From contig SVSQ01000013.1 in the NCBI GenBank assembly GCA_015064245.1, positions 1 to 35,389 of the forward strand: a stretch of 35,389 bases of DNA, written 5' to 3'. The stretch comes from Oscillospiraceae bacterium. Its GTDB lineage: Bacteria; Bacillota; Clostridia; Oscillospirales; CAG-272. Shown piece by piece: positions 11,557 to 14,954 of this stretch (its first letter is position 1; each line of letters opens with the position of its first letter). The notes beneath the pieces were generated by a model that saw only the letters and a list, made by a program, of their open reading frames with translations, was not told where the DNA came from and ran no database searches. Position numbers and translations under genes: made by a program.

Positions 11557-12006
11557 TCACAAATCCGTAACGGGAATACAGAAAGAAATATAAGTGTTTT
11601 CGCTTCGGATAACGACGCGCAGTCTCTTCGCGGAGGTCTTTGAGGAGATCTTGAATTCCCAGGTGACTTTTCCGTTTTCGTCGGAAAACTTGTCCGCAAA
11701 AGCTTTTGCTGCGCTGACGCCCGAAGGATAGTAGACGTTGATGTCGTAACGTGTGTTCGGAGTACCCGTAAGCGCGATAAAGGTCGTTTCGCCAGGATAT
11801 ACGGACTCGGGACGGTAGGCGATCTCCGTTCCATCGCCGATGACTATGACGCCGTCCGCCTCGGTCACCCCGCTTTCCGCTTCGGCGGACGCCTGCGCCT
11901 CGCCGTAGGGAATGGCGCTGTCCGATGATAAGAGAGCGTACGGAACGGTTATCGCGGCGAAAAGGAGCGCGCAGATCAGAATATGAAAAAGCAGCTTTCT
12001 GTTCAC
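11557..12006 (-). CDS. Membrane-anchored secreted protein in the GRE operon, unknown
   Basis: This 149-residue protein has an N-terminal hydrophobic helix (about residues 5-26, signal peptide or anchor) and no lipobox Cys. A short acidic linker (about 33-50) follows, then a beta-rich region of about 95 residues (GVIVIGDGTEIAYRPESVYP...), compatible with an Ig-like fold. No named family recognised. The GTG start has GAAGGGAG upstream. It begins 17 bases after the activase stop codon, so it is probably cotranscribed with the glycyl-radical enzyme. A cell-surface protein is unusual as a partner for a cytoplasmic radical enzyme. Confidence 0.75.
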   Translation of the reverse strand: MNRKLLFHILICALLFAAITVPYALLSSDSAIPYGEAQASAEAESGVTEADGVIVIGDGTEIAYRPESVYPGETTFIALTGTPNTRYDINVYYPSGVSAAKAFADKFSDENGKVTWEFKISSKTSAKRLRVVIRSENTYISFCIPVTDL

Positions 12007-12023: not shown

Positions 12024-12917
12024 TTACTTGATTTTTACCGACGCAGTCCCCTTCATTACCTTACATTCTATCCCGAATTCACGGAACGGGGAAAGATCGA
12101 CCTCCTCGGGTGCGTCGAAGACTTCGACGTAATCCTTACCCAACATCGGGTATTTTGCACCCGCCAGCGCGCTGTAGGGAAGAAGCTCGACTCTCTGCAG
12201 TCCCGCGGCATCTTTAAGTAGCCTTGCAGTTTCGGTCAGGTTGCGAATGCCGTCGTTTACTCCTTTTATGAGCGGAATACGCGCGGTAAAAGGCTTTCGG
12301 GAAGCGATGACTTCGTCAAGATTTTTGAGTATCAGAGAGTTGTCGACGCCCGTGTAAAGCTTGTGCTTTTCGGGATCGGTGTGCTTTATATCGAAAAACA
12401 AATAATCAACACGCTCGATTATTTGTTTAAAAATCTCCGTTTCGCAGAAGCCGCAGGTCTGTATCGCTTTATGTATCGGAAGCAGACTTAGAGTTTCGAG
12501 CAGGAACTCAGCCTGCATGGTCGGCTCGCCGCCCGAAAAGGTGACTCCGCCCCCGTCCTCAAAAAACATACTGTTTTTCATTATTTTTTCCGCAAGCTCT
12601 TCGGAGGAATATACCTTTCCCGCGATCTTTCGCAGATTCGCGGGACATTTTTCTACACATTTGCCGCAAGCAATGCAAGAGGATAATGAGCCCGTAAGCG
12701 CCTTTTTGCCGCCGCTCAGCGAACAGCCCTCCACCGCGCACCTTCCGCAGTCCGCGCAGGCGGAATAGGAAACCATCACTTGCGGGCGCGGTGAAAGCCC
12801 CTCGGGATTGTGACACCACCTGCATCGGAGCGGGCAGCCCTTCAAAAACACGGTGGTCCGTATTCCCGGCCCGTCGTAGACGGAAAATTCCTTTATATCA
12901 AATACTGTACCCTTCAT
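12024..12917 (-). CDS. Glycyl-radical enzyme activase (radical SAM, with 2[4Fe-4S] insert)
   Basis: This protein would install the glycyl radical on the enzyme encoded just upstream, using SAM and a reduced [4Fe-4S] cluster. The radical-SAM motif is C28-PLR-C32-RW-C35, followed by an eight-Cys ferredoxin insert (CADCGRCAVEGC near 54-65 and CIACGKCVEKC at 81-91). That insert is typical of activases of non-PFL glycyl-radical enzymes. TFSGGEP is the SAM-binding GGE motif. Its ATG follows the GRE stop directly (TAAATG), so the two are translationally coupled. At 297 residues it has normal length. Confidence 0.95.
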   Translation of the reverse strand: MKGTVFDIKEFSVYDGPGIRTTVFLKGCPLRCRWCHNPEGLSPRPQVMVSYSACADCGRCAVEGCSLSGGKKALTGSLSSCIACGKCVEKCPANLRKIAGKVYSSEELAEKIMKNSMFFEDGGGVTFSGGEPTMQAEFLLETLSLLPIHKAIQTCGFCETEIFKQIIERVDYLFFDIKHTDPEKHKLYTGVDNSLILKNLDEVIASRKPFTARIPLIKGVNDGIRNLTETARLLKDAAGLQRVELLPYSALAGAKYPMLGKDYVEVFDAPEEVDLSPFREFGIECKVMKGTASVKIK

Positions 12918-14954
12918 TTAAACGGTGTGCTCCGTTCTTGCAAGTATCTGATCCTGATAGATCTTGTCAAGCTCTGTAAAATATCCGCTCCAGCCCCAGA
13001 CGCGAACCACCAGGTTTTTGTACTTTTCAGGATTCTTCTGCGCGTCCATCAGCTTTTCGCGGCTGACTACGTTCAGCTGTATCTGATGACCGCCGAGATC
13101 TATGAATTTTTTTACCAGATAAGCGGTCTTGACTATGCCTTCCTCGTCTCTTACGGAGCTTGAAGCAAGCTCAAGGGTGAGAGGACCGCCGTTTATGGTC
13201 TTGGTCAGATCTGGCTTGGTGAAGGATGCGATCACCGAGAGGGGACCGTTCAGACGGACGTTAAGAGACGGGGTAAAGTTTGCGGGAAGGTAGTCGTCCT
13301 TGCGTCTTCCGTCGGCTGTAGCGCCCGTTTCACGCCCCGCGGCGTAGAACAGCGCTGTTCCCGTTCCCGCTCTGAAGCGACCGCCGCGGTCGTTTTTGAG
13401 AGGAGCAAGAGCGCGGGCGAAGCTGTCAAGGAGCATTATTCCGAAGCAGTCGGCTCTGTCGTCGTTGTTTCCCATGTGTGGAAGAGTGTTAAGTATTTTG
13501 TTACGGAGAGCCTCGTAGCCCTCGAAATCCTTGTCAAGAGCATCGATAAGCTCTTTTGGCGTAAGAAAGCCGTTGAATACCAGCGCTTCCACCGCGGCGA
13601 TGCTGTCGGCGGCGGTGGCTACTCCCACGCCGTGAATACCGAAATTATTGTACTTGGCGCCGTTCGTCACGTCGGAAAGAGAGTAGATACAGTCGTCCAT
13701 CAGTATGCTCATAAGAGGTGCGGGACGGCAGAAGAGTCCCGAATACTTATCGGGATACGCCTTGCATCGGTCGTTTATCTCGTTGTCAACGCAGATGAGG
13801 AAGGAGGCGAAGTCCTCGCATCGGTCAAGGTCGCGGCGTATGACGGTGTTCACGCAGTCGGGGAAGCTGAGCCAGCCCACGTTCGGGATCTCCATACCGC
13901 AGCCGGGGATTATGAACTCCCAGCAAGCGGCGACGGTGTAATTCACCGCGTCATATTTATCGTAGCCCAGGGCTTCAAGTCCGGGAATGACTACGTCGTC
14001 GTTTGAATACTGGGGAAATCCCATACCCGTGGCGGTCAGATGCGAAGCGAAGATAAGACGCTCGATTGGTGTGTTTTTGTTTACGCGGAGATTGATCTTG
14101 GGATCGATCATCTGAACGTTTAAGGACGCTTGCAGACAAAGCTCGGAGAGCTCGTTATATTCGTCGTTTCCGGCGATATCGGTACCGCCGAGCATCATGC
14201 TCTGACCGTTATCGCCCTGCTGGACGCCGATGTAAAGGTCGCTGTCCTTATTGAAGGTAATAAAGAGGTTTTCCAGCATTTCAAGGGCTTTATCGCGGGT
14301 AAGTACGCCTTTTTCGATATCGCGCTTGTAGTATGGGTACATATATTGGTCGAAGCGCCCCACGGTGACGTGGTAATCTCCCTCAAGCCACAGGCAGAAA
14401 TGCAGTATCCTGAAGGCTTGAAGCGCCTCTCTGAAGCTCCGCGCTCCGTAAGCGACGGCGTCCAAAGATTTATATATGCTCTTTTCGCCTGCTTCGAGAG
14501 CCGCTTTTTTATATCTGTCGGCGAAAGCGATTATTGCTTCGGCGGTTTCGATAAGCGTTGCGGCGTATTCCTTCTTTTCGGGATCGACGGCTTCTTGCGC
14601 GCTGTGACGAATGGTTGAGATGATATCGAAAAGCCCTTTTTCAATAACGTTTGAGTAACTCGGGCAGATGTTCGACAGCCAGCCGCGTTCGTGCTGTTTG
14701 GGTGGAGCTTTGATCTCGGGATCGTTTTCGGTGAGGATATCGGGATCGGCGGTCGTCGTTCTGGTGGGGACGAACATCTCGCCGGGAATGAATACGGGCG
14801 TCTGCATATCGAGAAGCGCCCGAAGTCTGTTTTTCATGCGAACGTGATATTTTCCCGTTGTGAAAAGCGACTTGTCGGGCATGGCGTCCGTTCTGAAAGC
14901 GTGATGCTTGCGGGAAAGAATGAATTCCTTATAGGCTTTGTTCTGTTCGGTCAT
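12918..14954 (-). CDS. Glycyl-radical enzyme of unassigned substrate (CWE active site)
   Basis: This 678-residue member of the PFL-like glycyl-radical family has the C-terminal radical loop RVWGWSGYF (radical Gly654) and the N-terminal HERGWLSNICPSY. The active-site loop reads VAACWEFIIPG, with thiyl Cys344 and Glu346. The Cys-x-Glu pattern is that of dehydratases, lyases and decarboxylases (CutC, glycerol dehydratase) rather than the Cys-Cys of pyruvate formate-lyase, but Trp at x and the missing Gly before Cys do not match the GCVE motif I know. It is shorter than the usual 750-850. ATG 14954 has GAAAGGA upstream; the track's earlier start adds an implausible leader. Substrate unknown. Confidence 0.93.
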   Translation of the reverse strand: MTEQNKAYKEFILSRKHHAFRTDAMPDKSLFTTGKYHVRMKNRLRALLDMQTPVFIPGEMFVPTRTTTADPDILTENDPEIKAPPKQHERGWLSNICPSYSNVIEKGLFDIISTIRHSAQEAVDPEKKEYAATLIETAEAIIAFADRYKKAALEAGEKSIYKSLDAVAYGARSFREALQAFRILHFCLWLEGDYHVTVGRFDQYMYPYYKRDIEKGVLTRDKALEMLENLFITFNKDSDLYIGVQQGDNGQSMMLGGTDIAGNDEYNELSELCLQASLNVQMIDPKINLRVNKNTPIERLIFASHLTATGMGFPQYSNDDVVIPGLEALGYDKYDAVNYTVAACWEFIIPGCGMEIPNVGWLSFPDCVNTVIRRDLDRCEDFASFLICVDNEINDRCKAYPDKYSGLFCRPAPLMSILMDDCIYSLSDVTNGAKYNNFGIHGVGVATAADSIAAVEALVFNGFLTPKELIDALDKDFEGYEALRNKILNTLPHMGNNDDRADCFGIMLLDSFARALAPLKNDRGGRFRAGTGTALFYAAGRETGATADGRRKDDYLPANFTPSLNVRLNGPLSVIASFTKPDLTKTINGGPLTLELASSSVRDEEGIVKTAYLVKKFIDLGGHQIQLNVVSREKLMDAQKNPEKYKNLVVRVWGWSGYFTELDKIYQDQILARTEHTV

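Follow-up and report, generated by a model that had tools for sequence, protein, structure and literature searches.

The 35,389-nucleotide stretch of Oscillospiraceae DNA analysed here (the window) encodes an oxygen-sensitive glycyl-radical enzyme (GRE) that is not a one-off and belongs to an uncharacterised GRE clade with carriers among gut and rumen bacteria. Members of this clade (referred to below as ACWE, after the invariant residues around the catalytic cysteine) are proposed to be radical C-O eliminases (dehydratases or lyases) for a plant-glycan sugar or sugar alcohol, with an arabinose-type compound as the leading candidate, a proposal that we hold to be about evenly balanced between right and wrong. 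The new element is the gene context of the clade, which is the best lead to the substrate.

The gene pair in the window

The open reading frame previously marked at 12918-14954 is real and its gene lies on the minus strand, where it runs without stops for 678 amino acids, whereas the plus-strand reading is interrupted by stop codons. The features of the locus are:

12918..14954, minus strand: GRE of the ACWE clade, 678 aa (ORF, Pfam, alignment, AlphaFold model and structure matches)
13902..13934, minus strand: Cys (thiyl) loop VAACWEFIIPG, residues 341-351, with Cys344-Trp345-Glu346 (translation and alignment)
12978..13004, minus strand: Gly-radical loop RVWGWSGYF, residues 651-659, with Gly654 between Trp653 and Trp655
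12024..12917, minus strand: radical-SAM GRE activase, 297 aa (ORF, Pfam and TIGR02494)
12813..12836, minus strand: radical-SAM cluster motif CPLRCRWC of the activase (translation)

The protein has the features of the GRE superfamily, i.e. a PFL-like barrel (PF02901, 2e-90) and a C-terminal Gly-radical domain (PF01228, 6.5e-21), a radical Gly and a catalytic Cys (both invariant) and an adjoining cognate activase. The ATG of the activase gene directly abuts the GRE stop codon (zero gap, same strand), and its product carries the CX3CX2C radical-SAM motif and a ferredoxin-type insert and scores 285 bits against TIGR02494 (cut-off 174). With Cys, Glu and Gly intact and the activase adjoining, the first-pass annotation was plausibly right, as judged from the translations, in expecting a functional enzyme. 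A sequencing artefact, a chance motif or a pseudogene was ruled out, as nothing interrupts the frame and the motif does not vary across homologues of 38-52% identity. The Cys-X-Glu (CXE) signature of GRE eliminases (PMC7077986, PMC8473560) is present as C344-W345-E346, and 1,2-elimination is the predicted reaction type.

Upstream of the GRE gene lies an SbcD/SbcC-like pair (15.0-18.4 kb, assigned by sequence appearance), while a 149-aa ORF with a hydrophobic N-terminus and no match in a Pfam search (11557-12006, minus strand) is found just past the activase. No sugar gene adjoins the pair in the window, and the window itself therefore gives no pathway clue. The genome from which it comes, only 80% complete, holds two GH51 genes, one DeoC gene and no AraA match.

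Standing among known glycyl-radical enzymes and the active site

A contig scan and two whole-genome searches yielded over 100 homologues, most of them at 38-53% identity to the window GRE, in Clostridia, Bacteroidales, Thermoguttaceae (Planctomycetes), Bacilli, one Treponema and one Gastranaerophilales genome. Named carriers are Diplocloster agilis, Diplocloster modestus, Ructibacterium gallinarum and Clostridium transplantifaecale. The distribution is patchy: members occur in 40 of 196 genomes of the host's family (~20%) and in 20 of 391 of its class (5%). In trees that took in E. coli PflB, PflD and YbiW together with HypD, CutC and diol-dehydratase-like proteins, the ACWE proteins form one clade with support of 100/100. 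The shortness of the protein, remarked on earlier, is genuine but is common to the whole clade (~640-700 aa) and to several other GREs of the same genomes.

Curated cut-offs, trees and the fold search together ruled out a known GRE type, and the earlier placement outside the PFL, CutC, glycerol-dehydratase and HypD groups was borne out by NCBIfam equivalog scores that are all far under the cut-offs. These are: (i) glycerol/propanediol dehydratase, TIGR01774, 323 bits (cut-off 678), (ii) HypD, NF043068, 285 bits (1100), (iii) sulfopropanediol dehydratases, 268 and 248 bits (1000), (iv) PflD (YbiW/PflD), NF007437, 257 bits (1109), (v) choline lyase CutC, TIGR04394, 217 bits (1050) and (vi) PFL, TIGR01255, 65 bits (994); the decarboxylase equivalogs behave likewise. 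HypD, CutC and YbiW/PflD are separate from the ACWE clade in the trees. The best PDB matches of the AlphaFold model (pLDDT 92.3, pTM 0.92) are all GREs (TM 0.77-0.89), headed by glycerol/propanediol dehydratases and HypD; at 18-25% identity, these solved structures lie well below the 40-50% above which a characterised GRE would count as a close relative, and no such relative was found.

The glycerol/1,2-propanediol dehydratases (1r8w, 5i2g, 9rco; TIGR01774) share with the window GRE the barrel fold, the CXE loop, the C-terminal Gly loop and a dedicated activase with a ferredoxin insert, but identity is only ~25%, ACWE stands for GCVE and WGW for AGY, and the window GRE is ~70 residues shorter at the N-terminus. 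HypD (6vxc) is likewise of the GRE eliminase type, with catalytic Cys and Glu, whereas its beta2-beta3 stretch with Asp339/Phe340 is deleted in the ACWE clade and its gene context differs.

Across 41 aligned sequences A343, C344, W345, E346, W653, G654 and W655 are invariant, as are the polar barrel residues H195, Q245, D248, N249, D284, K286, N288, R290, N358 and H441. This polar set, which sits in the stretches QQGDNGQS, IDPKINLR, KYNN...HG and NGGP.T.E, is the clade's own and, from the alignment, looks like a pocket re-tailored for a polar ligand. The radical loop had been called intact, which holds for the Gly itself but not for its surroundings: both flanking residues are Trp, whereas most reference GREs have Ala/Ser and Tyr. 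The translation agrees with the earlier reading that no Gly precedes the Cys and that the PFL Cys-Cys is absent (Ala343-Cys344). Trp at position X is present and invariant but not unique, since GCWE occurs in a second GRE family of the same genome; no fewer than two GRE families therefore share this Trp.

Known eliminases have Val or Ile at X, and their CXE Glu contacts the hydroxyl of the substrate; in HypD the corresponding Val435 is absent from the listed substrate contacts (PMC7077986, PMC8473560). Because of this, Trp345 would likely lie away from the substrate, contrary to the suggestion that it fills the pocket. Since adjacent residues of an extended loop face opposite sides, it more likely packs, by analogy, toward the Gly loop or the core than toward the substrate, perhaps pointing at the Gly loop, where the clade has Trp653 for Ala.

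The second CWE family (e.g. L004/L254; ~706 aa, with the loops GCWEVQIPG and RVSGWNARF) was found in 36 of 146 genomes of the host's family, including the window's genome (contig C36, 24298-26415, minus strand). It may be the sister of the ACWE clade, with support (93/94) that is not decisive and comes from a tree containing one mis-picked row, L272; as far as could be found it is also uncharacterised. Both families have Trp at X, Trp after the radical Gly and, frequently, a neighbouring activase and AraC-type regulator, but the second has Gly before the Cys and Ser before the radical Gly, and no GH51 or GH36 neighbours were seen in its 15 loci inspected. Two further short GREs of the window's genome (L002 on contig C19 and L003 on C81; 696 and 718 aa, Cys loops STCVEIT and GGCMEVG) are under all equivalog cut-offs, so that several uncharacterised short GREs occur in one small genome, which also has a GCVE enzyme above the TIGR01774 cut-off.

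Gene neighbourhoods of the ACWE clade

When the loci were reduced to 57 clusters at 70% GRE identity, an activase was present within 6 kb of the GRE in 44 and a glycan or monosaccharide gene in 24; the other 33 had no sugar neighbour within that distance, partly owing to short contigs or nearby contig ends. Neighbours within 5 kb of 104 GRE loci were compared with 797 kb of control DNA (other stretches of contigs from GRE-carrying genomes), and GH51 arabinofuranosidases (12 near the GRE versus 0 in the control), GH36/raffinose-synthase-like galactosidases (16 versus 1), AraC regulators (34 versus 5) and LacI regulators (12 versus 1) were enriched. These counts rest on neighbour families taken from the GRE loci in the first place, on loci that are not independent and on a sample in which many genomes are MAGs of fibre degraders. 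At the genome level GH51 was present in 17 of 30 GRE-positive and 3 of 29 GRE-negative genomes, a difference confounded by the larger size of the former.

Several arrangements link the activase (AE) and GRE to sugar uptake and glycan cleavage. Bacteroidales carry AE-GRE-XylE-like symporter-GH51 or AE-GRE-XylE-mutarotase, the transporter being D-xylose-proton symporter-like; in Treponema, AE-GRE follows a complete CUT2 importer, as it also does in Clostridium transplantifaecale, where a small cupin separates the two, and GRE-GH127 was also seen. The Diplocloster locus reads ADH-FGGY kinase-DeoC-AKR-cupin-AE-GRE-TIM barrel-SGL-transporter and that of genome G273 GRE-DeoC-GH43-ADH-FGGY-SGL-GRE-AE-GRE(CWE)-AE-GH36, so that FGGY kinase, DeoC (above its cut-off), ADH and SGL are found at loci of two lineages. 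Lactonases (SGL; PF10282) occur in a few loci. The hydrolase adjoining the pair in locus L136 is closest to solved alpha-L-arabinofuranosidases, the GH36-like neighbours resemble a plant galactinol-sucrose galactosyltransferase, and in the linked CUT2 importers the substrate-binding proteins show no more than a general likeness to ribose/allose types. There is no isomerase, kinase or aldolase that all ACWE loci share, and substrates may therefore differ among subclades.

Three other clues were dropped: missing AraA (strong matches in 7 of 30 GRE-positive and 2 of 29 GRE-negative genomes, with no clear replacement pattern), DeoC presence alone (common in the host family with or without the GRE) and microcompartment-type diol metabolism (the frequent neighbours include neither shell nor aldehyde dehydrogenase families).

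Further genes were noticed at some loci. The G273 run (L203, contig C13, 40000-59500) combines three different GREs, two activases and a GH36-like enzyme, and its second GRE has an unusual SACCTFD Cys loop and an RMYGFS Gly loop; the GRE of the Ructibacterium gallinarum locus L014 is also present in this genome, on contig C56. A family of ~500 aa (YYVS..GDD.NDG.SP..AW; L042:13917-15425, L129:11534-13075, L182:7328-8740) is encoded no more than 6 kb from the GRE in 4 of the 57 clusters and is absent from the control DNA; the members tested had no Pfam match, and a relative in L016 matches Beta_helix. Diplocloster and Clostridium transplantifaecale have a ureidoglycolate-lyase-like cupin (PF04115/DUF4867; L027:6528-7022, L053:6364-6852) immediately ahead of the activase.

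Proposed function and alternatives

An eliminase reaction is suggested by the invariant Cys, Glu and Gly, by the CXE motif that marks GRE eliminases and by the fold, which is nearest to glycerol/propanediol dehydratases and HypD; GRE precedent favours radical C-O elimination. The invariant polar residues of the barrel argue for a polyhydroxylated ligand, and the arrangements with XylE-like symporters, CUT2 importers, mutarotase, GH51 and GH127 point to a free monosaccharide. As importers and mutarotase adjoin, often with neither isomerase nor kinase, the GRE itself would act on the sugar or a near derivative. Alpha-L-arabinofuranosides, beta-L-arabinofuranosides (the GH127 substrates) and alpha-galactosides release L-arabinose or D-galactose, which have the same C2-C4 stereochemistry; an arabinose-type substrate, i.e. 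an L-arabino/D-galacto monosaccharide, is the leading candidate, arabinose itself being considered unlikely. Literature searches on GREs with arabinose, arabinofuranosidase, deoxyribose or pentose dehydration found nothing on the ACWE clade.

In the proposed mechanism, the activase with SAM would abstract H from Gly654, and the glycyl radical would generate a thiyl radical on Cys344, which in turn would abstract H at a substrate carbinol C-H. Glu346 would deprotonate the hydroxyl of this carbon to give a ketyl radical, the adjacent C-O bond would break and H would be returned by Cys344.

A lyase that opens the ring of an anhydro-sugar, or of its phosphate, on the model of E. coli YbiW/PflD (8id7, 8id0, 8yjo), would also be a CXE enzyme acting on a sugar-derived substrate, as proposed for the window GRE. 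The E. coli enzymes cleave the C-O bond of 1,5-anhydroglucitol/mannitol 6-phosphate; by their PDB titles, YbiW and PflD structures contain anhydrohexitol phosphates, so GREs do bind cyclic sugar derivatives, with which the importers and glycosidases at ACWE loci are compatible, and the folds are similar (TM 0.86-0.88). Both proteins nevertheless lie outside the ACWE clade in the two trees, at ~22-24% identity, and their phosphosugar substrate goes with PTS or FsaA neighbours in E. coli, whereas the ACWE neighbours import unphosphorylated sugars (symporter, CUT2) instead of the PTS found beside pflD, and no FsaA-like aldolase was identified. We regard such a lyase as unlikely.

Somewhat less probable again is a different GRE chemistry (C-C, C-N or C-S cleavage, or decarboxylation) with the sugar genes as incidental neighbours. 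CXE GREs do include the C-N and C-S lyases CutC and IslA (PMC7077986, PMC8473560), and the two Trp flanking the Gly and the one beside the Cys could mark new chemistry; against this, score, tree and fold identity are all distant from CutC, IslA and decarboxylases, and the link to sugar genes is seen repeatedly in unrelated lineages, with enrichment over control DNA. A small-diol dehydratase (for glycerol, 1,2-propanediol or similar) serving as an electron sink in sugar fermentation is improbable, even though the nearest solved relatives have this activity and CXE is kept, as the glycerol-binding residues His164, Ser282 and Asp447 of glycerol dehydratase are replaced by invariant Asn95, His195 and Asn358 (from alignment of a TIGR01774-positive stand-in), the 25 most frequent neighbour families include no microcompartment or aldehyde dehydrogenase family, and the genome already has its own GCVE enzyme.

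For a radical eliminase of free sugars or sugar alcohols, two products may be envisaged. If H were abstracted at C1 of a cyclic aldose and the C2 hydroxyl were lost, a 2-deoxy-aldonolactone would result, in keeping with the lactonases and mutarotases adjoining some copies; from a pentitol a 2-deoxypentose would form, in keeping with the DeoC adjoining others. This specific version, in which redox-neutral radical dehydration of a free aldose (e.g. L-arabinose to the 2-deoxy-aldonolactone) or of an alditol (to the 2-deoxypentose) bypasses the usual isomerase and kinase steps, is put forward as a long shot.

Many abundant gut GREs have no known function (PMC11574389). In the ACWE clade an altered radical site, a sugar-linked context and the availability of named strains come together, which makes the substrate question directly testable. 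If these enzymes do act on free aldoses, they would represent an unseen branch of anaerobic pentose or galactoside catabolism, and free aldose or alditol dehydration would give gut anaerobes a route for plant pentoses without the usual isomerase and kinase.
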